From Erysipelotrichaceae bacterium (GTDB lineage Bacteria > Bacillota_I > Bacilli_A > Erysipelotrichales > Erysipelotrichaceae), in NCBI GenBank assembly GCA_031272515.1, contig JAISTR010000004.1:1-56336 (forward strand): a DNA stretch of 56,336 nucleotides, read 5' to 3'. Numbering within the stretch: the stretch's first letter is position 1; every line of letters starts with the position of its first letter. Positions 1 to 51,400 of the stretch are shown in pieces. A program made the position numbers and the translations under genes. The notes beneath the pieces are model-generated. The model was not told the origin of the DNA and did not search any database. It worked only from the letters and a program-made list of their open reading frames with translations.

Positions 1-1956
1 ACCGACTCTTGGATTATCCTTATATGCAGCCGGCTTGGGCATGTTCGACTCATCCGGCATATTGGCATACGGATCCACATATTGACTGGAAACCACATAG
101 GGCGTTTCCACAAACCCGGCAACACTGCCCGCAATCTTTGCGACCGGTTTCACGACTTCCACAGTATCATAGGGGGAAACACTCGCTTTGACTTGCGCAA
201 CTTGTCCGGCTGCTGGTGCCCCATGCCGCGGGGTGTGCGGTGCTAAACTTGAAACGAAGCTCTCATTGGGTACGATAACCGGCATCAAACTCTCATTAAT
301 ATTGGGTAAAGCTGTCGCCTTGAAGGCAGCCGCATAAGAGCCGCGTGCCGGAGCCGGTGCTTTCCACTGACCAACTACTGGAACATAGCCTTCCTTGATT
401 TTGATACTACCGACTCTCGGATTATCTTTATATGCAGCCGGCTTGGGCATGTTCGACTCATCCGGCATATTCGCATACGGATCCACATATTGATTGGAAA
501 CCACATAGGGCGTTTCCACAAACCCGGCCACACTGCCCGCAATCTTTGCGACCGGCTTCACGACTTCCACAGTATCATAAGGGGAAGCACTCGCTTTGAC
601 TGGTGCAGCTTGTGCGGCTGGTGCCGCGTGCTGCGGGGTGTGCTGTGCAGGTTTTGAAGCAAAAGTTTCATTGACCACAACTACCGGCATCAGACTGTCA
701 TTGACATTGGAAAGCGGTGTATCCCGATACACAAAGGCATAGCTGCGCTTGGCAGGCGCCGGCGCTTTCCACTCTCCGACGATGGGAACGTACTGTTCCT
801 GTATGGCAATCGCCGCAACCCGCGGATTGTCCTTGTAAACGGCTGGTTTGGGTCTATTGGACTCATCGGGCATATTGGCATACGGATCGGCATATTGATT
901 GGATACCACATACGGGGTTTCCACAAACCCGCTTACCCGGTTTTCCGGTTGTGCTGACCGGCGCGGCGGAAGAGTCTCAGCCGGCTGCCCTAAGCTGACA
1001 TTATTATGGACCACAATTGGCATCAGGCTTTGATTGGGAAGCACTGGTGTTTCCTGGAAGGAAAAGGCGTAGGTTCCGCGTACCGGCTTGGGTGCCAGCC
1101 AGGAACCCACCACCGCCGTGGCAATGTTCTTGATGGAAATACTCGAAATCTTCGGGGTCGGTCGATAGCTTGCCGGCTGGGGCATATGCGATTCATCCGG
1201 CATATTCGCGTACGGGTCCACATATTGATTAGAAACGATATAAGGTGTTTCCACAAAACCCGGCATCCCCGTACCAACCGTTGCTGTATCGGCTACCGCT
1301 GCGCGCTGATGCACTGGCTGCGGGGCAGTGCGCTGCACCGTATTATTGACTATCACCGGCATCAGGCTGTCATTGACAGTCGGGATGGCGGTTGGTTTAA
1401 AGGTTGCCGCATAAGTCCCGCGCACCGGCTGCGGTGCTCTCCAGCTGCCGACAATCGGGGTTGGCATCAGCTTGATGTTGATATTGTTGATCTTGGGGGT
1501 CGGTTTATAGGCAGCCGGTTTGGGCATATTGGACTCATCCGGCATATTGGCATAAGGATCGACATAGCGGTTGGACACCACATAAGGCGTTTCCACAAAG
1601 CCCGGCATACTGATTACAGCGGCACTGGGTTGCGGTTCAAAGGTTGCCTGTGGCTCTACTGGCGCACCTGCTGGCATCCGGGAAACCGGATTAGTTACAA
1701 CCACCGGCATCAGCGAAGTGTTCTCCTCTGAGAGCGGAGTCTCCTTGAAGGTTGAGGCATAGGTCGCCCGGACCGGCACCGGTGCCCTCCAGCTGCCGAC
1801 AATCATCGTTGGCTGCTCTTTGATGGGGATGCTGCGCACCTTGGGGGTGGGACGATAGCTTGCCGGAGTTGGCATATGCGATTCATCCGGGGTATTGGCA
1901 TAGGGGTCTTCATAAACATTCGAGACAATATAAGGGGTCTCTACAAAGCCCGGCAT
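1..1956 (-). repeat. Six tandem coding repeats of 110-136 residues
   Basis: Units begin at the residue before GFVETPY: codons at 1954-1956, 1606-1608, 1264-1266, 934-936, 529-531 and 121-123, i.e. residues 680, 796, 910, 1020, 1155 and 1291. Periods are therefore 116, 114, 110, 135 and 136 codons. The sixth unit is cut by the window. The last two units match at a spacing of 408 bases with 8 differences over the first 180 aligned bases (1-180 against 409-588). This points to a recent duplication, while the earlier units have diverged. The two longest units gain a linker containing SPYDTVEVVKPVAKIAGSVA. Confidence 0.92.
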
Positions 1957-3993
1957 CACGCTATTGACTGCTGGTGTTGGCTGTGGCATGACAGGCTCTT
2001 TTACTGGCATGGTAAAAAGCGAGGCAGGCGCATAGTGGATTTCATTATCAATATCCACAGCAGCGGCGTGTGCCGCTTTCGGGGCTGCCTGTTCTTTGGC
2101 ATCGCTGCCGACAATGGTCTCTTCGATGACTTCGCCACTGGCAATACTGGTATCTTTCGGCGCAAAGCGGCGGCTGATGGTGTTGAACGGTGCCCGTTCA
2201 CTGGCCGGTAATGCTTCCAATGGCTGCATCAGTACTTCCGGTTCGCGGAAGTCCGGAATCAGTTCCTCAGTACTGACCGGAATGGCTTCCGGCAGCGAGA
2301 CCAAATCATCGATGATTCCCAAGCCATCATCCAGGTGTGAAAATTCGCCGCTGTTGGGGGAGAAGAAGATCCCTTGGGGGGCTTCCTTCAAATCCAACTG
2401 AATGTCCGGGGCACTGATCAGTTCTTCAATGTCCGGCAGTTCGCGGGTTTCATTTTCAAAACTGTCTTGTGCTTTATCTATGGTTTGTTTCGCTGGCGCG
2501 GTTTCGCTGCTTTGATCATCCTCGATAAAGGAGCGGGCGACCGCTGCCAGTTTGATTTCATCACTGTAGTGCTGCTCACTTTCCGAAAGGCTGAAACGGC
2601 GGGGCACTTCCTTCGTCTCCGCTTTACTCTCCATAACCGGTTCCGGTTTTTCTTCGGTTTTTATTTCCTGAATCGACTCAAAGGGCAATACCGGGTCCGG
2701 TATAATTTCGGCCAGCGGTTCCACAAACGGCTCCAGCAGCACTTCTGCCTCAGGCTCTTTTTTTGCGGCTGGCGCTATAGCCGGCTCCGGTGTGATTTCT
2801 ACCAGCGGCTCCACCAGTGTATCCACATAAGGTTCCAGCTTCACTTCATCCAGCGGCTGCTCTGGGGCACTTTCCTCTGGTGTGATTTCTACCGGCGCTT
2901 CATCTACCACCGCTTCTTTTAAAGAAACAGCTTCTTGAACAGGCTTGTCAGCCAGAATCGCATCCAGAACTTCCGGTATTTCCCCGCTGTCCTCCGGCTG
3001 TGACCAGCCGACATTCAACAGCAGGCTTTCGATGATGCTGAAGTCCAAATCATCCGCCTTATTGGTAGCTTCGTCCACCACCGGTACCAAAAGCTGAATC
3101 GGCTCGGCGGCGACTGCCTTAAACTCTTCTGGCTCTACCGCAAAGGGATTGAGGTTTTGTTGTGGCTCATCGCTCTCTACAAACACCGCCGGCTCTGGCT
3201 CAGACTGGGTCTCAACTTCGACTGGACTTTCCGGCTCTTTGACTGGTTCTGCTTTTATCAAGCGCTCCTTCTCCAGTGCGGGCTGTTTGGGCTCTTCTTT
3301 TTCAATGACCCCCGCAAAGAGATTGCTGTCAGCCTCTTCGCCAGCGGTTTTTAATACATCCGCAACCGTCGGCTCAGCTGGTTCTTCTATAACCGCCGTC
3401 TTTGGCTCTGGTTCTTTTGCTTCCTCTTTTTGCGGTTTTGGGCTGCTTTGTAAATCCGCTTCGTTATTCCCGTAGATTTCGGTTAAGATTTCATCCGCCT
3501 TCTCATCCAGCTGCTCATTGGAGAGCGCTGCGGGTTTAAAAGCGGAAGCCTCTCGCTGTATGGATTTTTTGTCTTCTTCCTTATTGTCACTTACATCCAG
3601 GGAATAGATGCTGTCCACCAGTTCATCGAGCTGCTTCTCCTGCTCTTGAATCACCTGGGAGGGCTCCGGTTTACTCTCTTCCACGGAGTTGATTAAAGAA
3701 TCCAAAGCCTGATAGGAGGAAAATTCCGGGTCCAGAATCGGTTTGGAATTGACCGCTTCACCAAGCAGTAAAGAGTTCGCATATTCCTGCTGCCCTACCG
3801 GCCCCATCATCGCCTCGTAGATCGCATATGGCAAATCCGGTGAAATCGCCTCTGGCGCTTCGCTGTTGCTATGTCCATTTTTGGATACGGCGGCGTGGTA
3901 CTCTGACTCGTTCACAGAGGAAAAACCCGAATCAATCGAGTCAGGATTGTTTTGGTTGTTGTCAAGATCACCGAATGGTCTCAGCTGTGACAT
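1..3993 (-). CDS. Large acidic repeat protein, C-terminus beyond the left edge
   Basis: Reading the minus strand from the ATG at 3993 gives 1331 codons with no stop to position 1; I checked every codon of this frame. The start follows a GGAGAGAAAGGGG ribosome site, and an in-frame stop lies upstream at 4015-4017. Residues 1 to about 679 are rich in Glu, Pro, Ala and Ser, likely disordered, with short recurring VEITPE-type phrases. From residue 680 six copies of a 110-136 residue unit follow, with core motifs GFVETPY, DPYANMPDES, VGSWRAP and SLMPV. No signal peptide or membrane span is visible. I recognise no family. Its length and unit structure suggest a scaffold or surface/cytoskeletal role, but that is inference. 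The 53-residue membrane peptide immediately upstream may be co-transcribed. Confidence 0.9.
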   Translation of the reverse strand, partial: MSQLRPFGDLDNNQNNPDSIDSGFSSVNESEYHAAVSKNGHSNSEAPEAISPDLPYAIYEAMMGPVGQQEYANSLLLGEAVNSKPILDPEFSSYQALDSLINSVEESKPEPSQVIQEQEKQLDELVDSIYSLDVSDNKEEDKKSIQREASAFKPAALSNEQLDEKADEILTEIYGNNEADLQSSPKPQKEEAKEPEPKTAVIEEPAEPTVADVLKTAGEEADSNLFAGVIEKEEPKQPALEKERLIKAEPVKEPESPVEVETQSEPEPAVFVESDEPQQNLNPFAVEPEEFKAVAAEPIQLLVPVVDEATNKADDLDFSIIESLLLNVGWSQPEDSGEIPEVLDAILADKPVQEAVSLKEAVVDEAPVEITPEESAPEQPLDEVKLEPYVDTLVEPLVEITPEPAIAPAAKKEPEAEVLLEPFVEPLAEIIPDPVLPFESIQEIKTEEKPEPVMESKAETKEVPRRFSLSESEQHYSDEIKLAAVARSFIEDDQSSETAPAKQTIDKAQDSFENETRELPDIEELISAPDIQLDLKEAPQGIFFSPNSGEFSHLDDGLGIIDDLVSLPEAIPVSTEELIPDFREPEVLMQPLEALPASERAPFNTISRRFAPKDTSIASGEVIEETIVGSDAKEQAAPKAAHAAAVDIDNEIHYAPASLFTMPVKEPVMPQPTPAVNSVMPGFVETPYIVSNVYEDPYANTPDESHMPTPASYRPTPKVRSIPIKEQPTMIVGSWRAPVPVRATYASTFKETPLSEENTSLMPVVVTNPVSRMPAGAPVEPQATFEPQPSAAVISMPGFVETPYVVSNRYVDPYANMPDESNMPKPAAYKPTPKINNINIKLMPTPIVGSWRAPQPVRGTYAATFKPTAIPTVNDSLMPVIVNNTVQRTAPQPVHQRAAVADTATVGTGMPGFVETPYIVSNQYVDPYANMPDESHMPQPASYRPTPKISSISIKNIATAVVGSWLAPKPVRGTYAFSFQETPVLPNQSLMPIVVHNNVSLGQPAETLPPRRSAQPENRVSGFVETPYVVSNQYADPYANMPDESNRPKPAVYKDNPRVAAIAIQEQYVPIVGEWKAPAPAKRSYAFVYRDTPLSNVNDSLMPVVVVNETFASKPAQHTPQHAAPAAQAAPVKASASPYDTVEVVKPVAKIAGSVAGFVETPYVVSNQYVDPYANMPDESNMPKPAAYKDNPRVGSIKIKEGYVPVVGQWKAPAPARGSYAAAFKATALPNINESLMPVIVPNESFVSSLAPHTPRHGAPAAGQVAQVKASVSPYDTVEVVKPVAKIAGSVAGFVETPYVVSSQYVDPYANMPDESNMPKPAAYKDNPRVG

Positions 3994-4051
3994 GTTTTCC
4001 CCTTTCTCTCCCCATTATTTCTCCCAAAAGAGTTCCCGTAAATATGGTGCG

Positions 4052-4213
4052 TTAAGAAAGATGACTGTCGCTTTTTTCTTCGCGTTCCAGATCGTCCTTG
4101 GATATAATCGTTTTTTCCAGTTCTTCGTCCTGGTCAGAGGTGGAATTCATAATAACAGTAATTACCGCGGCAGCGGCGGCTAAAAGGGCTACTGTCGAAA
4201 GTAGTTTTTTCAT
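4052..4213 (-). CDS. Small membrane-anchored acidic peptide, 53 aa
   Basis: The ATG at 4213 is preceded by AAAAGGAG at good spacing. The product starts MKKLLSTVALLAAAAAVITV, a single hydrophobic segment. A strongly charged tail of about 30 residues follows (DQDEELEKTI, then DDLEREEKSDS). The gene lies 58 bases upstream of the large repeat protein on the same strand, with no terminator seen between them, so the two may share a transcript. It could be a secreted peptide or a membrane anchor for an acidic tail; no family is recognised. Confidence 0.7.
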   Translation of the reverse strand: MKKLLSTVALLAAAAAVITVIMNSTSDQDEELEKTIISKDDLEREEKSDSHLS

Positions 4214-4254
4214 AAACACACTCCTTTTCTGTATTTTATCATTATTTTTCAGTT

Positions 4255-31778: not shown

Positions 31779-32218
31779 ACAGAACTCCTTTCATACAGAA
31801 AGTCAATGGCTTTCAGATAACTCTCAAAGCCCAGCCCGCTTATGGTCTTTACACAGGCACTTGAGAGATAGCTGGTTTTGCGGAAGTCCTCCCGTTTTTT
31901 AGGATCACTGAGATGCACTTCCACACAGGCAATCCCTATAGCCATAAGTGCATCATAGAGGGCGATGGAGGTATGGGTATAGGCACCGGCATTGAGGATC
32001 AAACCGTCCGCCTTTTGATAGTAGGCTTCCTGAATCCAGTCCACCAGCTGCCCCTCATGATTGCTCTGACGGTGAACCAGGGCAATATTTTTGTTGGCAC
32101 AATAAGCTTGCAGTGTATCCTTGAGGTCCTGATAGCTTCGATTACCATAGACCTCCGGTTCACGGATCCCCAGAAAGTTGAGGTTGGGCCCGTCAAGAAC
32201 CCAGATTGTTTTTGTCAT
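31775..32218 (-). CDS. aroQ: Type II 3-dehydroquinate dehydratase
   Basis: 147 residues from the ATG at 32218, which has AGGAGG seven bases upstream. WVLDGPNLNFLGIREPEVYG is the type II N-terminus with the catalytic Tyr; RQSNHEGQLVDWIQEA, LNAGAYTHTSIALYDAL and VEVHLSDPKKRE follow. It dehydrates 3-dehydroquinate by the trans mechanism. It begins within the last codons of the aroE-aroK fusion. Confidence 0.94.
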   Translation of the reverse strand: MTKTIWVLDGPNLNFLGIREPEVYGNRSYQDLKDTLQAYCANKNIALVHRQSNHEGQLVDWIQEAYYQKADGLILNAGAYTHTSIALYDALMAIGIACVEVHLSDPKKREDFRKTSYLSSACVKTISGLGFESYLKAIDFLYERSSV

Positions 32219-33437
32219 TATAAGCCTCCTGTATTTGGGCAAGCGTATGCTCTATCACCAGATTCTCACACACATAGTCCGCTGCCTTTTGATAAAGGTG
32301 CGCCCGCTTTTGATAGAGGATTTCCAGCTGTGTTTTGTTTTGCGCCAAAGGGCGCTCTGCACTTACAGCCAAGTCAGACAAGGGGCGCTGCAGATAGACC
32401 AGCCAGCCGTTTTGTTTCAACAGCCTGACATTTCCATCGTCCAGGATACTGCCACCGCCGGTGGCAATGATCAGGGATTGTCTGGCTGCCAGCGCCGCAA
32501 TCACATTTCGCTCTTTCTTTCGAAAACCCTCCTCCCCGCTTTCCTTGAATATTTCAACTATGGACTTTTTTTCCTGTTTTTCAATCAGGGTATCCACATC
32601 CGCAAATTCCCGGTTCAAACACTTTGCCAAGGCCTGGCCGATGGTGGTCTTGCCGCTATCGGGCATGCCAATCAGCACGATGTTGGTCATTTGTTTGACT
32701 AAGGTATTCAGTACCGTTTCCGGTTGATTTTTTAATTTACGGACACCAAAATCCAAGAGGGCTTCCACCCCCTGTCCCACTAACATCGCCAGGCCCCCAG
32801 CTGTTTGTTTGCCCAAATCCTTTGCCTGCATAAGCAGGCTTGTACGCAGGGGATTGTAGATGATGTCGATGACGGTTTCAATTTGCGGATAAACTGACAA
32901 ATCCAGGGGACTGTCCTTCAGGTTTGGGTGATTGCCGACCGGGGTCGCATTGATTAAAAGGGAGGCGGGATAGCTTATTAAATCAGAATAGCTAAGCTGC
33001 CCTTGTGTAGGGGTACGCGAGACCAGCCTCACTTCCTTCGCACCGGCTTGTCTTAAAGCATAAGAGATAGCCAGGGCGGCTCCGCCGCTGCCCAAAACTG
33101 CCGCGGTTTTGTTTTGAACATCTATATGGTATAAGGATAAAAGCCAAACAAAGCCGGCGGCATCGGTGTTGTCACCATAGAGGTGCCCTTTTTGATTGAT
33201 GATGGTATTGACAGAGCCGATGGCTTTGGCCCGCTCTGAGAGCTCGTCACAAAAGGCCATCACGGTCTTCTTATAGGGGATTGTGACATTGAGGGATTCA
33301 AAGTCCCTGCACTCTAAAAGCGACTTCAAGCCTGTTTCATCCACTTCCAATAACTGATAGTCCCGGATACCTGCCAACAGGTTATAAACCTGCGGGGACA
33401 GGCTGTAGGAAAGTCTTTCGCCAACCAAGCCTCTCAT
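32193..33437 (-). CDS. aroEK: Shikimate dehydrogenase-shikimate kinase fusion
   Basis: 414 residues. Residues 1 to about 245 are AroE: VGERLSYSLSPQVYN, ESLNVTIPYKKTVMAF, AIGSVNTI, DNTDAAGF and VLGSGGAALAISYAL. Residues from about 250 are AroK: IVLIGMPDSGKTTIGQALAK (Walker A), FADVDTLIEKQEKKSI (Asp of the shikimate site), FRKKERNVI and IATGGGSIL. One chain would reduce dehydroshikimate and phosphorylate shikimate. No stop or frame break separates the halves, so this is a true fusion. It overlaps aroC by 4 bases. Confidence 0.93.
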   Translation of the reverse strand: MRGLVGERLSYSLSPQVYNLLAGIRDYQLLEVDETGLKSLLECRDFESLNVTIPYKKTVMAFCDELSERAKAIGSVNTIINQKGHLYGDNTDAAGFVWLLSLYHIDVQNKTAAVLGSGGAALAISYALRQAGAKEVRLVSRTPTQGQLSYSDLISYPASLLINATPVGNHPNLKDSPLDLSVYPQIETVIDIIYNPLRTSLLMQAKDLGKQTAGGLAMLVGQGVEALLDFGVRKLKNQPETVLNTLVKQMTNIVLIGMPDSGKTTIGQALAKCLNREFADVDTLIEKQEKKSIVEIFKESGEEGFRKKERNVIAALAARQSLIIATGGGSILDDGNVRLLKQNGWLVYLQRPLSDLAVSAERPLAQNKTQLEILYQKRAHLYQKAADYVCENLVIEHTLAQIQEAYNDKNNLGS

Positions 33438-38231: not shown

Positions 38232-40451
38232 CTAGAGATCAAACTCCGGCAGATACTCCTCTTCTTCCTGCCGGATTTCATAACGGCTTTCCGTCAGTTC
38301 TCCGCTTAGCCGCTCCTTGAGCGTGGTGTAGCGGATTTTTTTATCCAGGGTTGCAATCGCCTGGAAGAACACATCCCGGTTTCCCACCAGCACCAGCTTT
38401 TTGGAAGCCCGCGAGATGGCAGTATAGACCATCCGGCGGTCCAACATGAACAGATTATCACGGGTAAAGGGCATGATGACCAAAGGATACTCGCTGCCCT
38501 GGGACTTGTGCACGGAGATGCAGTATGCCAAGCGCAGATGCGAGAAATACTCGCTGGTGTACTCGACGATGTTATCGTCGAAGTCCACCTGCAGCCGCGG
38601 TTCATTTTTATCGGAGGCATCAATTTCCACCAGCGTGCCGATATCGCCGTTATAGACATCATCATCCGCCTGGTTTTTCAGTTGCAAAACCTTGTCCCCT
38701 TCCCTGAAAAAGAAGAAGGAGTGCTTGAGTTCCTTTTTGAAGGCACCAGAAGGATTGCACAGCTGCTGCAACAAATCATTGAGAGTATCGATGCCGCTGT
38801 TGCCGCCATAGCGGGCAGCCAGCACCTGAATCTGTCCTACTTCCCACTTCTTCAAAGCCTCTTCCACCGTGAAGAGAATCGCTTTGTTGACACCGGTACC
38901 GGAAGCCTCCAGAAAGGAAACATCACTGCCAAATTCAATCAGCTCCGGGGTATTGTTGCGGATGGCATGGGCCAGCTCGATGACCCCCGAGCCCTCCTGC
39001 TGCCGGTAGATCCGCTTAAGGGTCACCACCGGAAAACGCGCACAGCCTAAAAGGTCCGCCAAAAGCTTGCCGGGCATCACCGGCGGCAGCTGCGCCTCAT
39101 CACCAATCAAAAGGATTTTCTTCACCTGCGCACTTGCTTTCAAGAGATTCGCAAACAGCCAGGGGTCCACCATCGAAGCCTCATCCATAATCAACAAGTC
39201 CAAAAGCAAAGGCTGCTTGGCATTCATGCCGAAGGTATTGGATTCCAAGTCCCACTTCAAAAGCGAGTGGATGGTGGTGGCTCCGGTCTGGGTCAGCTCA
39301 CTCAAGCGCTTGGCGGCTCTGCCGGTTGGCGCACATAGGGCGATTTGGTGCTCTGGATAAAGGCGCTGAAACAGCGTCACAATTCCCCGCACCACCGTGG
39401 TCTTGCCGGTTCCCGGACCGCCGGTTAAAATCATGATATCCTTGTCGAAGAAGGTCTCAACCGCTTCGCGCTGAATCGTATCGTAGGTGATGCCGATTTT
39501 TTCCTCGACTTCCGCAATGAGTCCGGGCAAAAGCTCTTTCTCAACCGGTGGCAAAGGCTCTTGAGGGAAGCGGTTTAGAAAGCGGGTGATCGTAACCTCG
39601 GCATCGTATTGGGTATGGTGATAAACCCGGTCGTCTTCCACGACCAACAGGCGCTCGCGCACCAGCTCTTGCAAATACTCTTCGTAGCCGCTGTCAAACT
39701 CCCGCAGGTACAAAGCCTCCAAGTCGTCCAGGTACAAGAAGCTGTTGCCGCTTTTGACAGAGCTCTCCAGACTCAAAGACAAAAGAAAGGCCTTCTTGCG
39801 GTAGGGATGATCAAGGTCAAAGCCCATGCCCAAGGCCAGCTTGTCGGCGGTGGCCATGCCGATGCCATCGACCTCCACCACCAGCCGGTAGGGATTTTCC
39901 TTGACCTTATTCAACGCTTCCTTGCCGTAAATGCGCTCCAGGCGCATGATGTTGCGGATGCCCAGGCCATAGGTGGAAAAGAAGGCAATCGCCTGCTCCA
40001 GGTCATCCTGATTCAATAGCCCGTCCAAAAGGACGTCCTTTTTGGCCTTGTTCATGTTGGGCATCTCATCCAGAATGTCCGGATCGTTTTGTACCTTCTC
40101 CACCAAATCTTTACCATAGTAAGTCACCAAGCGTTTCGCAAAACGCTTGCCGATGCCGGGAAAGGAAGGTCCAGAAAGGTAGGCGATCAGGGAATCCTCA
40201 TCACTGGGCAGTTGCCGGGTGTAGCTGCTGATTTGAAACTGGCGGCCGAACTTGGGATGAAAGACAAAGTCCCCGCTTAAGACAAACAGGGTATCCTTGG
40301 GCAGTACCGGCAGATGACCAACCACCGTGATCTGACGCTCGCTCACATCATCATACAGACGAAAGCGCGCGACGGTATAGTGGGTCTCGGCATTGCGGAA
40401 AACGGTCTTGACAAAGCGCCCGCGCAGCTCATCCGCCATGCTTAAAACCAC
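38232..40451 (-). CDS. recD2: RecD2-type ATP-dependent DNA helicase
   Basis: 739 residues. An N-terminal OB-like and helix-hairpin-helix region (FPGIGKRFAKRLVTYYG, VDGIGMATADKLAL) precedes the SF1B helicase core: LTGGPGTGKTTVVRGI (Walker A), LLIMDEASMVD (motif II), LLIGDEAQLPPVMPGKLL (motif III) and YCISVHKSQGSEYPLVIMP (motif V/VI region). RecD2 unwinds 5'-3' without RecBC. It overlaps the CPBP protease gene by 10 bases. Confidence 0.94.
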   Translation of the reverse strand: MVLSMADELRGRFVKTVFRNAETHYTVARFRLYDDVSERQITVVGHLPVLPKDTLFVLSGDFVFHPKFGRQFQISSYTRQLPSDEDSLIAYLSGPSFPGIGKRFAKRLVTYYGKDLVEKVQNDPDILDEMPNMNKAKKDVLLDGLLNQDDLEQAIAFFSTYGLGIRNIMRLERIYGKEALNKVKENPYRLVVEVDGIGMATADKLALGMGFDLDHPYRKKAFLLSLSLESSVKSGNSFLYLDDLEALYLREFDSGYEEYLQELVRERLLVVEDDRVYHHTQYDAEVTITRFLNRFPQEPLPPVEKELLPGLIAEVEEKIGITYDTIQREAVETFFDKDIMILTGGPGTGKTTVVRGIVTLFQRLYPEHQIALCAPTGRAAKRLSELTQTGATTIHSLLKWDLESNTFGMNAKQPLLLDLLIMDEASMVDPWLFANLLKASAQVKKILLIGDEAQLPPVMPGKLLADLLGCARFPVVTLKRIYRQQEGSGVIELAHAIRNNTPELIEFGSDVSFLEASGTGVNKAILFTVEEALKKWEVGQIQVLAARYGGNSGIDTLNDLLQQLCNPSGAFKKELKHSFFFFREGDKVLQLKNQADDDVYNGDIGTLVEIDASDKNEPRLQVDFDDNIVEYTSEYFSHLRLAYCISVHKSQGSEYPLVIMPFTRDNLFMLDRRMVYTAISRASKKLVLVGNRDVFFQAIATLDKKIRYTTLKERLSGELTESRYEIRQEEEEYLPEFDL

Positions 40452-41182
40452 CCAATCATATTGGAAACAGCCAGGATATTAATCAACATATGCAATATCA
40501 GACTGGCGGTAAGGGTGCCGGTCTGTTTATAGAGCACCACCAAAAGAAAACCGGTATAGAAATAGGGCAAAAAGTTGACCAGCTGCCCCCACTGTCCGGT
40601 AAAGAAAATCGTGTAGATATGCATCAGGGCGAAAAGGATGGAACTGGTGAGAATCCCAAACAAAGGATGATTCTTGAAAAACTGGCTGCCCAAAGCGGCC
40701 CGGAAGACAATCTCCTCACAAAACGGCCCAATCAGGGTCGCACAAAACGTCATCCCCAGCGGATTGACCGCGAAGTAGACTGTGATTAAGCTCTGGTTGT
40801 TGTTGCCGGTTGCCCGGGCAGTGATAAGGGAAAGCAGAACGGTGCCCACAAAGTAGAGACCAAAGGAAATCAAAACCCATTGAATGACTTCAAGCCAGTT
40901 GCGCTTGCTGTTTTGGACTTCATTTTTCCATAGAGGCAGACTGAGCCAAAAGAGAATCAGGGCGGTGATGATGGTGGAGATAACCGACAAAAGGCTTGCT
41001 TGCAAAGCAAGGCTATACAGGCGGTAAGCCGGCCATACACGCAAAAAGAGCCAATGGAGGATCTGCGAAAAAAAGACCATGTGTCCGCCGAAAAAGACCG
41101 CCAGGATACAAAGCCAGCGCCACCAGGGAAGCGGTGTAAACACCGGTGATTTAACAGCTGAATTTTCTGATCTAAAGGTCAT
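40442..41182 (-). CDS. CPBP-family intramembrane metalloprotease
   Basis: 246 residues from the ATG at 41182, preceded by GGTG; an ATG at 41197 would add five residues. About seven membrane spans. The metalloprotease motifs are visible: GPFCEEIVFRAALGS (EExxxR), SSILFALMHIYTIFF (FxxxH) and a late HMLINILAV (HxxxN). It is second of two tandem homologues between mnmA and recD2. CPBP proteases mature or degrade membrane substrates, or protect against bacteriocins. Confidence 0.88.
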   Translation of the reverse strand: MTFRSENSAVKSPVFTPLPWWRWLCILAVFFGGHMVFFSQILHWLFLRVWPAYRLYSLALQASLLSVISTIITALILFWLSLPLWKNEVQNSKRNWLEVIQWVLISFGLYFVGTVLLSLITARATGNNNQSLITVYFAVNPLGMTFCATLIGPFCEEIVFRAALGSQFFKNHPLFGILTSSILFALMHIYTIFFTGQWGQLVNFLPYFYTGFLLVVLYKQTGTLTASLILHMLINILAVSNMIGWF

Positions 41183-41186
41183 GGGT

Positions 41187-42011
41187 TCACCACACATAAC
41201 GCGCGAGCACCGCGATGGTGGCGGTCGCGTTGAATAACATATGCAATAAGACCGGAGCGGCAGCGGTCTTGGTCAGCCGGTAGATCCCCATGATCAACAA
41301 ACCATCATAGAAATAACCCACAATGGCGGAGAGCTGATACCATTGACCGTGCGTAAACTCCGTCCAGACATGCAATAGCGCAAAGAGAAATGTGGAAAAT
41401 AAGAAGCTGAAGATTGGGTGCTTGCGAAAAAAGGAACCGGCCAAAGCGACCCGAAAGGTCATCTCCTCCACAAAAGGTCCAAAGAAAATCAGGATCAAGG
41501 ACATCCAGAAGGGATTGGTCAGTAGGCAGGAAACAACGACCTGCTGGTTGATGCTGACAGAGCCCATGATGAAGATATTGGAAAAATAGTTGAGCACAAA
41601 ATAGACACCATAGAAAATAAACAGCCAGCGGAAGACCTGGCGCCAGTTGCGTTTGCGGTTTTGGTATTCATAGCGAAACAATGGCAAACAAAGCCAGCCG
41701 ATTACAAAAAAGGAGGTAATGGTCATGATGGTGTAGATGATGGTTAAGGTTTTATAGGAGTCGGACCAAAGCCAGATTACCGGATAAATCCCCCGCACCA
41801 GATTCAAAATCGCTTGCGCAAACAATTCAAGGGCATCCTGGTCAAAGAGGAAAAACCACAATAAAACCAACACTGCCCGCCAGCGCGGCAAAACAAAAGG
41901 CTCGTCTTTTTTAACCGCTGGCTGGTTTGGTCTTTCATCATAGTTGAGCCCTGCCTGTAAGCTCAAGGCAAAAAGCTCATCGGTATCGTAAAGGTAGTTG
42001 AGCCTATCCAT
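41187..42011 (-). CDS. CPBP-family intramembrane metalloprotease
   Basis: 274 residues, paralogous to the next gene over much of its length (for example both share NSKRNW/NRKRNWR and the same span order). Motifs: GPFVEEMTFRVALAGSFF, STFLFALLHVWTEF and HMLFNATATI. A cytoplasmic N-terminal extension of about 50 residues precedes the first span. The start overlaps mnmA by 8 bases. Tandem duplication and divergence is the simplest history. Confidence 0.88.
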   Translation of the reverse strand: MDRLNYLYDTDELFALSLQAGLNYDERPNQPAVKKDEPFVLPRWRAVLVLLWFFLFDQDALELFAQAILNLVRGIYPVIWLWSDSYKTLTIIYTIMTITSFFVIGWLCLPLFRYEYQNRKRNWRQVFRWLFIFYGVYFVLNYFSNIFIMGSVSINQQVVVSCLLTNPFWMSLILIFFGPFVEEMTFRVALAGSFFRKHPIFSFLFSTFLFALLHVWTEFTHGQWYQLSAIVGYFYDGLLIMGIYRLTKTAAAPVLLHMLFNATATIAVLARYVW

Positions 42012-45751: not shown

Positions 45752-48700
45752 TTAATGTGTTTGTTGCCTTTTGTTAAGTACCAGCATAAGCGCCAGCACA
45801 CCCGCCAAAAGCATCATGGCCGAATAGACAGGTACTGTATCTGTGACTCCGGTTGCCATCGGCGTTGCCGGCTGTACCGGTGTCGCCGGGTCTGCCGGCG
45901 GGGTCCAGATCGCGTAGAGGGTGATGCTGGAGTTGATGGAGGGGATGCTGTCTCCCAACACATAGATGGTCCCCAGAATCACTTTGTCCATGGCCGAGAG
46001 CGAAATCCCGCCATCACTGGAGTAGGCAACCGCCTTGAAGACTGCTGCGCCGCTCGGGCTGGTTCCCCAGCCGGAGAAGATGTAGTTGCCATTGCTGTTA
46101 TAAGGAGCTCCGGTTGGCGCATGGCTGGGCAGAATCGCAAAGCTGCTTCCAGCTGTGATGGTTTCCGTTGCCGGTACCGCCGTCACCCCATCCGTAGCAC
46201 CGCTGGGGATGTTCTTGTCAAAGGTGATGGTGATTAATGCCGGGATAGCCGTCCAGCCCGCATAGATGGTGGTATCGGTTGCCGGCATTGTATCTGAGGA
46301 GGTCACCGCTGTTGTGCAGCTGCTGTCCAGATACCAGCCGTCAAAGGTATAACCGCTGCGGGTGGGCGCATTGGCCCCGCCCACATCCTGGCTGCTGTAG
46401 CTTGGCGCACTGGTGATCAAGCTGCCGATGGCGACCGTATCGGTGGCATTACCGCCATTGATCAGGGCGGTGCCGCTGCCGCCGTCATTGAGATCATAGT
46501 GCAGATAGACTATGGCATCGGTATAGTAGGCTTTCAAATGGAAGATGAGGCCGTCGGTATCCGTTCCCCAGTCATCGATCAGATCACCGGCAACGCTGGA
46601 GCTGGTAACCGTTTGATCACCCAGCGTCAGGGTATCGGAAGATGCGGACGGATAGCTGATTTCCGTGAGTTCCCAGTGGTCAAAGACCTTGCCATAGGGA
46701 GCCGTAAGTGATCCAGAAGGCAACAAGCCGCTGTCGGTGTAATGGACCCCGGTCTTGTTGGCAATTGTGGTGGCACCACTGATGTCACCGCCATTTAAAT
46801 CATAGGCAACCTCATAGCTGTTGAGTTTGTAGTAGACATACAGCTTGAGCGGATAGCCGCTGTCGCCAACAGCAATCACAGTCCCGCTTAGCACTTCACC
46901 GCTATGGCCTGAATCCCAGGTATAACCGGTAACAGGCGAAGGCGTCGTGATGGTAATCACGGTCCCGGCGCTTGCCGCTATCGAATCCACACTGGATGCA
47001 CTCGTCGGCCAGGTGCTGTCCGAATTTTGCAAGAAGGTATGCACTTCATAGTGCGGGGTATTGAACTTCGCATGGAAGTTGAGCTCCACCGTCGTATCAT
47101 CAATCAAAGGCTTCAGGACACTCAGCGCTGAAGTCGTCAGATAGGTGTTACTCAAGCCGGAAAGGGTTTGCGCGGATCCCACCGTTACCGAACTGGCATC
47201 CTTCAGGGAAGCGGTAGCCAGTTCCACGCCATAGTTGGTATCAGGGGTCGCTTTTAAGGTCAGACCGGTGAATTCCTTGCTGGGATCTACGCTGTAGTAG
47301 AACTTGTTTACACCCTTGTCATAGATGACTTGGAAGGAAGTATCCGTGTTGGCTGTCAGCCCCGGATAGCTGCCGCCACTGTTGATATAGACGAAGGTTC
47401 CCCACGAAGCCTGTTCATGGGTCACGGTAACCGTCAATACCTGCGTAATCGGATAGCAGTATTTCACGATGCCATAGCTTTTGACACTGGCATCATAGGG
47501 AATGGTGAAGTCCAGCGAAGAACTCCCGGCTGTCAAGCCTTCCCCGCTGTTGGTAGTCAATACCACCGGGTCTTTGCCGGCAATGATATTGCCGCTGTCA
47601 TCCAGCGCCCGGTAAGAAACAACATAGACATAGCCGGGACGGTTGGCAACCGCGATGTCATCCGGGTAGTTCAAAGAGACATTCAAGGCGGAAGTCGTAT
47701 CCGCGGCAATCCAGATGTTGCCCTTGTAGGTCAGCTTGCTGATTTCATAGCTGTTGAGCGGTTTGGTACCCGCATAGCCGGTAGTGGTATTGGTAACGGC
47801 ATCAATCAGCGAGACGATTTTATCGGTGCCATTGGTGGAAGCTGTAAACTGGTCCAAAACCCCGAAGTACAGGGTCTCACTGCGGGAGGCAGGAAGGATA
47901 TAGGCCTGATTGAGCTTATGGGCTGAAGTGCCGGTGCTGTTATAGGCCGGGGTTTGGTTTTGCATGCCGATCCAGCCGCTGCCGACCACCGCCGTGGGGG
48001 CAATCTCCACATAGTGTCCACCTGTTAAGCTTGAGGTATCCGAGCCTGCCAGGATGGCGATGTCAGAGCCCCATTTGGAGCCGGCTGGCGAAATGGCTGA
48101 AGCGGTTTGGGTGTTGTCCTTGATGGTTCCGCCCAGCATCACAAACTGGGTGTTGTTGGTACCGGTGACAATGACCCCGCCGCCGATGTAGGCTTTGTTT
48201 CCGGAAATCTCGCCGTCTTCCATGATGAATTTGGCCGCTTCCGAAACCTGCACCGCGCCGCCGCCGACGTTGTTGTAGCTTTGGTCTTCCACCCCTTTGG
48301 TGATGGCGATGGAGCCGATGGAAGAGTCATTCCCCTTCATTTCCCCGCCATGCATGACCAGCTGGGAGGAAAGTGTCAATTTAAAGACACCGCCGCACAT
48401 TCCGGTCTTGTTGTCGTTCAGTTTGGCGCCGTTGAAAATTTCGATGTCGCCCTGCTGATCATAGAAGACCCCCTGTCCGGATAAGGAGCAGATGGAAATT
48501 CCCAAGACGGAAGTACAGCTGTAGCCTTTGTTGATATTGCCGCTGACTTCCCCGTAGATATTGATGTGATTGGTACCGGCGTTGGCGGAATAGAACACCC
48601 CATACGGCTGATAGCCAAAATTGTTGTTTACTTTCCCGGTGGGGTTGACATTGAAGGTCACCCCGCCGCCGGAGATAAAGGTGTAGAAATAGTTGGCCTT

Positions 48701-49837
48701 GTTGCCATTCATCTCCCCGTCGATATCAATGGTCAGTTTATCATCGACGCCAAGGGGGCGGATGACATAATCCAGTGTATCCGTCCATTTTTCCACAGTG
48801 ATGCCACTCACGGTTGTGGAAGCCAGCGCACCGATGCCTTCGTTGTTATTGACCTTGCCGCCATTCTCCACTTTCATGGAACCGGTAATCCAGATCACCG
48901 CTACACCGAGGTGGTTGTCGGAAAGCTCGCCGCCGTTTTTAATGGTCAGGCGCACCTCCTCCCAGTCACTTCCGGTATTGAGGAGATCGTGGATGCCATA
49001 GTCGGCGGTATTGTTTTTAATCGGCCCTTCAATGGTGACAATCGCATCCTTCTCCCCACCATCCGCTGAGCCGGTATCTTTCATTTGAATCAGATTGCCG
49101 CCGATAAAGGTGTTGTTGGTAATATTGGCATTAGGCCCAACAGTCAGCTCTCCGCCAAAGACATAAGCGATACTGCCCTTGGGAATGGTATTGTTGGCAA
49201 TCGTGCCGTTGATGGTCGCTTTGCCTTTGAAGTTATAGATGGCTGTGGAGAAGGTTTCATCCCCGCCCAGCCAGTCTTTGATTTCCGAGCCCGGGTCCAT
49301 GATAAACTCGGCGCCGTTTTCCAAAAAGACCACACCGCGGTTGCCGCCGTTATTGGTCAATACCGCCCCGCTTCCCAGGGTGACGGTAATACAGGCGTTG
49401 TATGCGGAAATTGTCCCTTCATAGGCAATTCCTTCGGGGTTATTGGCATCATCGATGATGATGTCTTCTAATAGCAGTCCGGAAGAAACCGAGCAGTCTG
49501 CGGGGTTTACATCCACCTCAATCATGGATGGATAATAACCGCCCGGTCTTACTGCATCGGTTGCCAAAGGCCAGCCGCTGCTGGCGCGGGTGATGGTATA
49601 GGGCCCCCCGGCACCGCTTTTGATGGTAAGGTTTTTTGTCCAGTAGCGGATGGGAGATTCCAGGGTGATATTGGCTGTGATTTCAATGACATCCCCATCC
49701 ACTGCCGAGTTGATGGCAGTATGCAGGTCCGCATCAGTGCCAACAGAAAAAGTGGCTGCCTTGATTTTAATCGGAGCATTCGCCCACATCAGTAAAAGCA
49801 TTGCAAAAGCCACCAGAAAGTTTATCTTTCGTTTCAT
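45752..49837 (-). CDS. Large cell-surface protein: parallel beta-helix, InlB-type repeats, TGVxD anchor
   Basis: 1361 residues from the ATG at 49837; eight earlier codons merely translate the ribosome site. A signal peptide ends near APIKIKA. TDADLHTAINSAVDGDVIEI and many short Asn/Gly-rich turns to about residue 640 suggest a right-handed beta-helix of the pectate-lyase type. Later come MucBP-like and InlB/Flg_new-type repeats (YDLNGGDISG; GYTFDGWYLDSSC). The C-terminus is Pro/Thr-rich, then TGVTDTVPVY, a membrane span and NKRQQTH. It is an adhesin-like wall or membrane protein. Confidence 0.87.
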   Translation of the reverse strand: MKRKINFLVAFAMLLLMWANAPIKIKAATFSVGTDADLHTAINSAVDGDVIEITANITLESPIRYWTKNLTIKSGAGGPYTITRASSGWPLATDAVRPGGYYPSMIEVDVNPADCSVSSGLLLEDIIIDDANNPEGIAYEGTISAYNACITVTLGSGAVLTNNGGNRGVVFLENGAEFIMDPGSEIKDWLGGDETFSTAIYNFKGKATINGTIANNTIPKGSIAYVFGGELTVGPNANITNNTFIGGNLIQMKDTGSADGGEKDAIVTIEGPIKNNTADYGIHDLLNTGSDWEEVRLTIKNGGELSDNHLGVAVIWITGSMKVENGGKVNNNEGIGALASTTVSGITVEKWTDTLDYVIRPLGVDDKLTIDIDGEMNGNKANYFYTFISGGGVTFNVNPTGKVNNNFGYQPYGVFYSANAGTNHINIYGEVSGNINKGYSCTSVLGISICSLSGQGVFYDQQGDIEIFNGAKLNDNKTGMCGGVFKLTLSSQLVMHGGEMKGNDSSIGSIAITKGVEDQSYNNVGGGAVQVSEAAKFIMEDGEISGNKAYIGGGVIVTGTNNTQFVMLGGTIKDNTQTASAISPAGSKWGSDIAILAGSDTSSLTGGHYVEIAPTAVVGSGWIGMQNQTPAYNSTGTSAHKLNQAYILPASRSETLYFGVLDQFTASTNGTDKIVSLIDAVTNTTTGYAGTKPLNSYEISKLTYKGNIWIAADTTSALNVSLNYPDDIAVANRPGYVYVVSYRALDDSGNIIAGKDPVVLTTNSGEGLTAGSSSLDFTIPYDASVKSYGIVKYCYPITQVLTVTVTHEQASWGTFVYINSGGSYPGLTANTDTSFQVIYDKGVNKFYYSVDPSKEFTGLTLKATPDTNYGVELATASLKDASSVTVGSAQTLSGLSNTYLTTSALSVLKPLIDDTTVELNFHAKFNTPHYEVHTFLQNSDSTWPTSASSVDSIAASAGTVITITTPSPVTGYTWDSGHSGEVLSGTVIAVGDSGYPLKLYVYYKLNSYEVAYDLNGGDISGATTIANKTGVHYTDSGLLPSGSLTAPYGKVFDHWELTEISYPSASSDTLTLGDQTVTSSSVAGDLIDDWGTDTDGLIFHLKAYYTDAIVYLHYDLNDGGSGTALINGGNATDTVAIGSLITSAPSYSSQDVGGANAPTRSGYTFDGWYLDSSCTTAVTSSDTMPATDTTIYAGWTAIPALITITFDKNIPSGATDGVTAVPATETITAGSSFAILPSHAPTGAPYNSNGNYIFSGWGTSPSGAAVFKAVAYSSDGGISLSAMDKVILGTIYVLGDSIPSINSSITLYAIWTPPADPATPVQPATPMATGVTDTVPVYSAMMLLAGVLALMLVLNKRQQTH

Positions 49838-49902
49838 ACTCTTCTCCTTCTTCTTCAACAAGATTCCCCAAATTTAAAATAACAGTACCCAAATACAAAG
49901 AA

Positions 49903-50092: not shown

Positions 50093-51400
50093 TCAGTTTT
50101 CTTCTTTCTTGCGCTTTGTTAATAGCAGGAGTGCAGATGCCAGCGCCAGCATCGTCGCATAGAGTGAGAGACCATCGGGCACTCCGGTTGGTGCCGGGGT
50201 AGTCGCAGCCGGGGTCGTCACGGTTGGTGCGGGATCATCGTAGTACAGGTAATAGATATAATTCACACCGCTCGCAAATGTTCCCGAAGGTGTTCCTGCA
50301 GTTCCAAGCGAGCAATCCACCGGACTGGCCAGAGCGGTTGTGCTATAGCACTTGAGAACTTTCGGTGCAAACCCCGGGTCAGTTACCGTAAACGCTGCTC
50401 CGGCAGTTCCAGTTGTAGAATACGCTGCAGCTAAATCGTTGTTGTCCATATCCCGATAGTAAGCAGTATAGGATGATCCGGCTACCGCAATCGGAACAGA
50501 TTTAACAGCATTGCCATTATCATTGAAATTCATAATTACTTTGGCGACATAAGGGTCTGCACCCTTCACCAGATTAATGAAATAGTTGTAGCCTCCTGGA
50601 GCAGTGTCCAGTTCCACCACAGCCACTTGGTCCAAAGTAGCCGGGACCAGCTGAGCGGTATCCGTATAAAGGCTCGGATCTACATCGAGAATTTCTTCCA
50701 AATAAATGTTCAAATTCTTTAAATCCTCTGCATGTGAATCAGGATTGCTTCCAGTCGGGTCTGAGGATGTTGGATATGGATCAGGAAGTACATGTTTTCC
50801 AAGCACACCGGTACCATTATAAGCAGGATCCGTTTCACAGATGACGGTAATTGTATTGGTGGCGGAATTATAAGTCAATGTGGTTACATTAAACATTGCC
50901 CGGTATAACGCCGAACTCGGGTCACTACCGTCTCCAAACAACTCCTCAGTATTTGCCTGCAAATAAGCAAGCTTAGAGGCATTTACCGTAATCCTGGGGT
51001 CATTAATTGTATAGGTCAACGTAATTTCGGCTCTGATTACAGCGTCTTTCGCAAAGTCATGGATGTAATTGACGATGGTCGAGCCAAATATCGCAAAGGG
51101 CGAACTTCCGTCATTCGCAACAATCGTATTGATTACCCCTTCAATATCTGAAAAATTGAAATCCACTTCCATGTCCAGCGTCTGACGATCATCGAAATGC
51201 AATAAGTCCTCATCATCTGTGCTGGTAGCATCCAGTGCCCGCGTTGTGATTCCATCACTTTTTACGGTGTAGTAGTAAACATCGGAAATGGTGTTTACAT
51301 CATAGGTTGATCCCTGGAGAGTCAATCCCGCACTGACTGTACTGCTAAACAATCCCAAAGCAAGGCACAGTGTCAATAACACTGTCAATGTTTTTTTCAT
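50093..51400 (-). CDS. Secreted surface protein with TGVxD anchor
   Basis: 435 residues. A signal peptide (MKKTLTVLLTLCLALGLFSS then TVSA) precedes an extracellular part of about 370 residues without recognised domains. It includes DFNFSDIEGVINTIVANDGS and EITLTYTINDPRITVNAS, probably beta-rich. A Thr/Pro linker (TVTTPAATTPAP) leads to TGVPDGLSLY, a membrane span and TKRKKEEN. AAGGAGAAGAGG precedes the ATG, and a TTGTAA/17/TATATT promoter lies upstream. It shares its C-terminal signal with two other proteins of this cluster. Confidence 0.82.
   Translation of the reverse strand: MKKTLTVLLTLCLALGLFSSTVSAGLTLQGSTYDVNTISDVYYYTVKSDGITTRALDATSTDDEDLLHFDDRQTLDMEVDFNFSDIEGVINTIVANDGSSPFAIFGSTIVNYIHDFAKDAVIRAEITLTYTINDPRITVNASKLAYLQANTEELFGDGSDPSSALYRAMFNVTTLTYNSATNTITVICETDPAYNGTGVLGKHVLPDPYPTSSDPTGSNPDSHAEDLKNLNIYLEEILDVDPSLYTDTAQLVPATLDQVAVVELDTAPGGYNYFINLVKGADPYVAKVIMNFNDNGNAVKSVPIAVAGSSYTAYYRDMDNNDLAAAYSTTGTAGAAFTVTDPGFAPKVLKCYSTTALASPVDCSLGTAGTPSGTFASGVNYIYYLYYDDPAPTVTTPAATTPAPTGVPDGLSLYATMLALASALLLLTKRKKEEN

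Follow-up and report, generated by a model that had tools for sequence, protein, structure and literature searches.

The question raised by this locus was whether a giant repeat-containing open reading frame (ORF), which runs off the left edge of the window, encodes an orphan protein or belongs to a recognizable family. The window, by which we mean the whole stretch of 56,336 nucleotides that was analysed, is contig C6 of a 2.13-Mb assembly of 55 contigs from an Erysipelotrichaceae bacterium. The frame was found to extend on the minus strand from position 3993 to position 1, with 1331 codons and no stop, as described in the initial annotation, and to begin with an ATG codon that is preceded by an AAAGGGG ribosome-binding site when read from the sequence. 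The acidic and proline-rich character reported for its first half was borne out by a net charge of −102 and by glutamate and proline contents of 15.4% and 10.3%, respectively, over residues 1 to 680. Likewise in keeping with the earlier description, no signal peptide was detected in the window frame, nor was a transmembrane (TM) segment or a long hydrophobic stretch (highest 19-residue Kyte-Doolittle mean of 1.21). Scans of the giant against Pfam, NCBIfam, and PHROGs returned no credible match, with the Pfam scan covering the window half and residues 601 to 1326 of the presumed continuation on contig C53, whose repeat units are in residues 1 to 600. The features considered here are as follows:

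4052..4213, minus strand: small ORF of 53 amino acids (MKKLLSTVALLAAAAAVITVIMNSTSDQDEELEKTIISKDDLEREEKSDSHLS), TM anchor and short acidic tail, located with the N-terminal profile of relatives
3999..4005, minus strand: ribosome-binding site of the giant gene, AAAGGGG, read from the sequence
1..3993, minus strand: giant protein, N-terminal 1331 residues, an open frame to the contig end with a presumed continuation on contig C53
1951..3993, minus strand: residues 1-681, acidic and proline-rich, predicted to be disordered, with a composition resembling the E/P-rich linkers of relatives
1603..1950, minus strand: repeat unit 1, residues 682-797, by unit profile and sequence reading
1261..1602, minus strand: repeat unit 2, residues 798-911, by unit profile and sequence reading
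931..1260, minus strand: repeat unit 3, residues 912-1021, by unit profile and sequence reading
526..930, minus strand: repeat unit 4, residues 1022-1156, with a longer spacer SPYDTVEVVKPVAKIAGSVA, by unit profile and sequence reading
118..525, minus strand: repeat unit 5, residues 1157-1292, with the long spacer SPYDTVEVVKPVAKIAGSVA as in unit 4, by unit profile and sequence reading
1..117, minus strand: repeat unit 6, first 39 residues, cut at the contig end, by unit profile and sequence reading

The repeat consists of a 90-residue unit plus spacers. Where six units of 110 to 136 residues had been noted previously, five whole units and a sixth cut after 39 residues were identified, with starts at residues 682, 798, 912, 1022, 1157, and 1293 (spacings of 116, 114, 110, 135, and 136 residues), and all of the motifs quoted for them were present. 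Each copy scored between 77 and 164 bits with the unit profile, and the divergence between units was found mostly at silent sites (mean pS of 0.69 versus pN of 0.25; dN/dS of 0.08 to 0.28 where computable). Based on these scores and on the excess of pS over pN, the units are not a product of chance and the protein sequence of the unit is under purifying selection; since the units differ mostly at silent sites, the window frame is a protein under selection. The unit profile detected 11 copies in the source genome and had no hit in the other genomes searched, 294 from the order and 391 from the phylum (overlapping sets), and searches of Pfam, NCBIfam, PDB sequences, plasmids, and IMG/VR gave no match. 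Thus, the profile search that had been proposed as a check on the novelty of the unit assigned it to no known domain and, as far as the tools reach, the unit is undescribed within these databases and genomes. A Rhizobium locus encountered in the contig scan (43% over 47 residues) was rejected as a relative, its score with the unit profile being 7.5 bits (E-value 0.1). Structure prediction, which had also been proposed, was performed with AlphaFold2 and yielded no confident fold for one unit (pLDDT 58, pTM 0.14; 5 alignment rows) or for two (pLDDT 41, pTM 0.16; 4 alignment rows); as the alignments had only 4 to 5 rows, the missing fold is weak evidence that the unit may be disordered. The conservation of the unit, together with the lack of a predicted fold, would fit an array of binding motifs.

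Extension of the contig leftwards had been suggested initially, and a matching continuation was found at the start of contig C53 (L006, 3-3983, plus strand), where a frame in the right orientation encodes 1326 residues up to a stop codon. This piece includes five further units, 629 residues of P/K/E-rich (disordered) sequence, and a C-terminal domain of about 110 residues. Directly behind the stop is a terminator-like hairpin of 8 pairs and a T run, after which the next gene, identified by reading the sequence, encodes a pyruvate:ferredoxin oxidoreductase (PFOR). Within the genome, units were found only at the left edge of C6 and at the start of C53; the former piece is without a C-terminus, the latter is without an N-terminus, and each runs off its contig end in matching orientation. 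Because the truncations match in this way, we infer that the two contigs hold one gene, which when joined would encode at least 2,657 residues and at least 11 units. A comparison of the contig ends revealed no exact overlap, such that these values are lower bounds, and further units may be located in the gap. The lack of overlap would also be expected if the two halves were different genes and the window frame had another, unseen C-terminus. This alternative is considered highly improbable, as the unit is confined within the genome to these two pieces, each truncated on the matching side, and as units close to the gap (N5 and C1) are those most alike across it, with 83% amino-acid identity.

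When the end domain of the C53 piece was used to search the order, weak matches were found at the ends of other proteins, and these relatives were found to share an architecture of (i) a short N-terminal TM segment; (ii) an acidic linker, which ranges from about 20 to 740 residues; and (iii) a conserved C-terminal domain. The domain profile detected this family in 174 of the 273 genomes of the taxonomic family, mostly in single copy and in ORFs of up to 865 residues, with the domain at the C-terminus in the family ORFs examined; matches outside the taxonomic family were only marginal. The source genome (G000) has one family match, as do nearly all of the relatives. With a profile that excluded the giant's own sequence, the end domain of the giant was recovered at an E-value of 1.1e-9 (residues 1218-1325 of 1326). 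A relatives-only profile from which the closest relative was also removed scored 32.6 bits (E-value 1.8e-8), and neither any of 3,000 shuffles nor any non-family ORF exceeded 8.2 bits. Since a broader profile of 29 rows did not report the giant in the genome search at an E-value ≤ 0.001, the relation of its end domain to the family is distant.

The other end of the shared architecture was located immediately upstream of the giant gene. An N-terminal profile, built solely from the relatives and run on 752 ORFs from the window and 20 kb of C53, identified the small anchor ORF as the counterpart of the relatives' N-terminus (E-value 2.4e-8, frame 4052-4219, minus strand), while the next best ORF had an E-value of 0.52. 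The anchor ORF is preceded by a AAAGGAGTG ribosome-binding site and ends 58 nt before the ATG of the giant. Anchor and giant are therefore adjacent genes, in the same order as the corresponding parts of the relatives' single gene, which suggests that an ancestral gene was probably split into the anchor ORF and the giant, with expansion of the linker. The possibility that the two are one frame broken by error was rejected, as the anchor's frame is not continuous with that of the giant, which is served by a ribosome-binding site of its own.

On the basis of the C-terminal domain on C53 and the upstream TM ORF, the giant is recognized not as an orphan but as a split and hugely enlarged representative of a family that is conserved and apparently undescribed. 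The initial statement that no family was known thus holds for the unit, which matches nothing searched, but not for the protein as a whole. Like the family, the giant has a homologous C-terminal domain, a homologous anchor, a single copy, and an acidic disordered linker. Unlike the relatives, which are encoded by one ORF of about 160 to 865 residues (e.g., L042 7871-8413, L043 8103-8639, and L080 5216-7813), it is distributed over two ORFs, has a length of at least 2,657 residues, carries 11 units that were found nowhere else, and occupies another genomic location. The giant's own chain has no N-terminal TM anchor, this being a separate ORF, and the anchors of some relatives are weakly recognizable; a TM anchor in the same chain is a typical, not a defining, feature of the family. 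Two family members, L098 (G023:C1) and L097 (G043:C19), were observed to have a very cysteine-rich linker (e.g., CCCEAEPEAACSCAEESCGCDESCTCEEGCACEDE), which suggests a metal-binding or redox-active variant with a cytosolic location.

The charges that flank the TM segment bear on the side of the membrane to which the linker is exposed. In the relatives, the mean K/R count is 2.9 behind the TM segment versus 1.8 in front of it, and the count behind is at least as high as that in front in 34 of 39, a bias that favors a cytosolic linker. The window anchor has 1 after versus 2 before; with so few positive charges behind its TM segment, its tail could face outward, in which case it would be unable to hold the giant.

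The nature of the end domain was then considered. The domain of the giant itself had no significant Pfam match, including none to RraB up to an E-value of 10, and the source genome had no RraB match up to an E-value of 1. Among the relatives, Pfam RraB (PF06877) was above the cutoff in 5 of 41 and, in G013 and G018, was placed at the same position as the domain profile. Over half of the end domains scanned (16 of 29) matched RraB at an E-value ≤ 1, with a best value of 1.1e-11, while every other family was matched by at most 2; in L094, the match covered positions 3-100 of 102 at 45.6 bits (cutoff 23.3). A profile of eight RraB-related relatives, six of which were over the Pfam cutoff, scored 25.3 bits on the giant's domain, compared with 6.9 bits for the best shuffle. 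As the giant's own domain is without a Pfam match, it is related to RraB by two steps, and it is not filed as RraB here. The end domain of the family is a divergent relative of Pfam RraB, by a link that is weak but consistent and that is based on Pfam and intermediate members rather than on direct comparison with the E. coli protein: hhalign of the family profile against E. coli RraB (NP_418676.1) alone was weak, with 31.7% probability over 41 columns. Matches of the end-domain profile to PDB entries (designed Rossmann-like proteins and PdaA) were scattered and weak and were rejected.

The wider family resembles RraB in the order of its elements, a conserved His before the central strand, a GY, and an end motif of Y.G(W/Y/F). 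E. coli RraB, an inhibitor of RNase E, is small and soluble. Here, unlike in E. coli, the domain ends membrane-anchored proteins or a giant acidic protein, and does so in bacteria without RNase E/G: PF10150 was found in 0 of 41 genomes, including the source genome, while the control genomes were positive. RNase Y was present in 21 of 21 genomes, the source genome among them. Given the absence of RNase E/G, the RraB-like domain must have another partner in these bacteria, and membrane-bound RNase Y is a candidate by analogy to E. coli, where the scaffold half of RNase E is the binding site of RraB, which remodels the degradosome (PMC3997798, PMC10126417).

A model consistent with these findings is that one ancestral gene, encoding a TM anchor, an acidic disordered linker, and an RraB-like domain, gave rise to an anchor gene and a giant gene; the anchor would have become its own ORF, and the linker would have been inflated in the source lineage by at least 11 copies of the new 90-residue unit plus spacers. 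The giant would be cytosolic, as it has no signal or TM segment. Its units may act together as a string of conserved, unfolded linear binding motifs to which several copies of one partner are recruited, while the end domain may dock on a partner protein as RraB does on the RNase E scaffold, and the anchor/giant system may work at the membrane. The docking partner might act in RNA decay, RNase Y being one guess. The anatomy and homology of the anchor and giant are advanced with high confidence. That the giant is a flexible, membrane-linked multivalent scaffold, which presents an RraB-like domain perhaps at the membrane, is a reading we hold with about as much belief as doubt, and an RNA-decay partner for the end domain is doubtful. 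More speculative still is the proposal of a new type of intracellular multivalent scaffold, in which the 11 or more conserved, unfolded units would gather many copies of one partner (e.g., the RNase Y-based decay machinery) at the membrane through the anchor peptide and the RraB-like dock, possibly as a condensate. Of the two possibilities raised initially, a cytoplasmic scaffold remains the best reading, whereas nothing was found to support nonclassical export. The second half on C53, the anchor, and the family were not part of the initial annotation.

Three other functions were weighed against a multivalent scaffold. HMW1 and HMW3 of Mycoplasma pneumoniae are large, acidic, proline-rich cytoskeletal proteins, and the giant is similar to proteins of this type in gross composition and size. 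An internal cytoskeletal or spacer protein of HMW1/HMW3-like use, which would bridge a distance within the cell and in which length itself is selected, would account for a giant acidic, proline-rich chain without a signal and for linkers that are extremely variable in length across the family while the ends are conserved. It was judged unlikely, as no EAGR box or other mycoplasma domain was found (by Pfam, over the window half and C53 residues 601-1326), and purifying selection on the unit sequence implies that more than length matters. The giant further differs from the HMW proteins in that no sequence relation to them was found and in that the organism is walled and has Mur ligases. Less probable still is an adhesin-like repeat protein that is exported or displayed at the surface by a route other than a classical signal. 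Surface proteins often have long repeat arrays, and an N-in/C-out orientation of the relatives' anchor is conceivable; yet the giant is devoid of a signal peptide, a TM segment, and any extended hydrophobic stretch, the same Pfam scan of the window half and C53 residues 601-1326 matched no profile of a known surface repeat, and the K/R bias of the relatives (34 of 39) favors a cytosolic linker. Lactic acid bacteria have giant extracellular repeat proteins at their surface (PMC12863079); the giant of the window resembles these proteins in being a very large repeat protein of a small Bacillota genome, and differs from them in having no export signal.

A regulator of RNA decay, in which the end domain binds membrane-bound RNase Y or a degradosome partner and the giant would recruit the machinery or keep it sequestered, would draw on the family's relation to RraB, the occurrence of RNase Y in 21 of 21 genomes with RNase E/G in 0 of 41, and the binding of RraB to RNase E through the scaffold half of the latter (PMC3997798, PMC10126417). 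We give this function little credence, since most members resemble RraB only weakly and the giant does not do so at the Pfam level, RNase Y also occurs in genomes from which no family member was recovered and was not a neighbor in the loci read, and Pfam RraB-like folds may have other partners. Overall, these findings connect a giant that seemed an orphan with a conserved family whose RraB-like domains occur in bacteria with RNase Y and without RNase E/G, such that the role of RraB-like domains without RNase E becomes testable. Furthermore, a fixed anchor and a fixed end domain joined by a linker whose length spans from about 20 residues to over 2,000 would provide a natural experiment on the purpose of disordered linkers, and the 90-residue unit adds a conserved repeat without a known relative or a confident fold.

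In many relatives, although not all, the family gene is located between an O-methyltransferase (OMT) gene or asd upstream and the ecfA1-ecfA2-ecfT-truA-rplM-rpsI cluster downstream. No family gene precedes the ecf-truA cluster of the source genome (contig C46, L148), and the giant is instead between glpO-like and PFOR genes, which is not the usual place of the family. In G073 (L091 7757-9295, minus strand), the asd frame is stop-free into the family gene, which has kept its own ribosome-binding site (AAAGGAG) inside the run-on frame; a reading of the frame as an Asd fusion was set aside on this account, and the run-on may be either a natural fusion or an assembly error.

Additional genes of the window were also observed, all on the minus strand. 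A 435-residue frame (50093-51400) had no Pfam match. At 32193-33437, one frame combines the N-domain of shikimate dehydrogenase with a shikimate kinase domain, as fused enzymes of the aromatic pathway. At 40442-42011, a pair of neighboring multi-pass membrane proteins that resemble each other carry E-E-x-x-(F/Y)-R motifs and look like putative CAAX-protease/CPBP proteins. A 1369-residue frame (45752-49861), in which a Listeria-Bacteroides repeat (Flg_new) near residues 1158-1201 is the only known element, probably encodes a surface protein.
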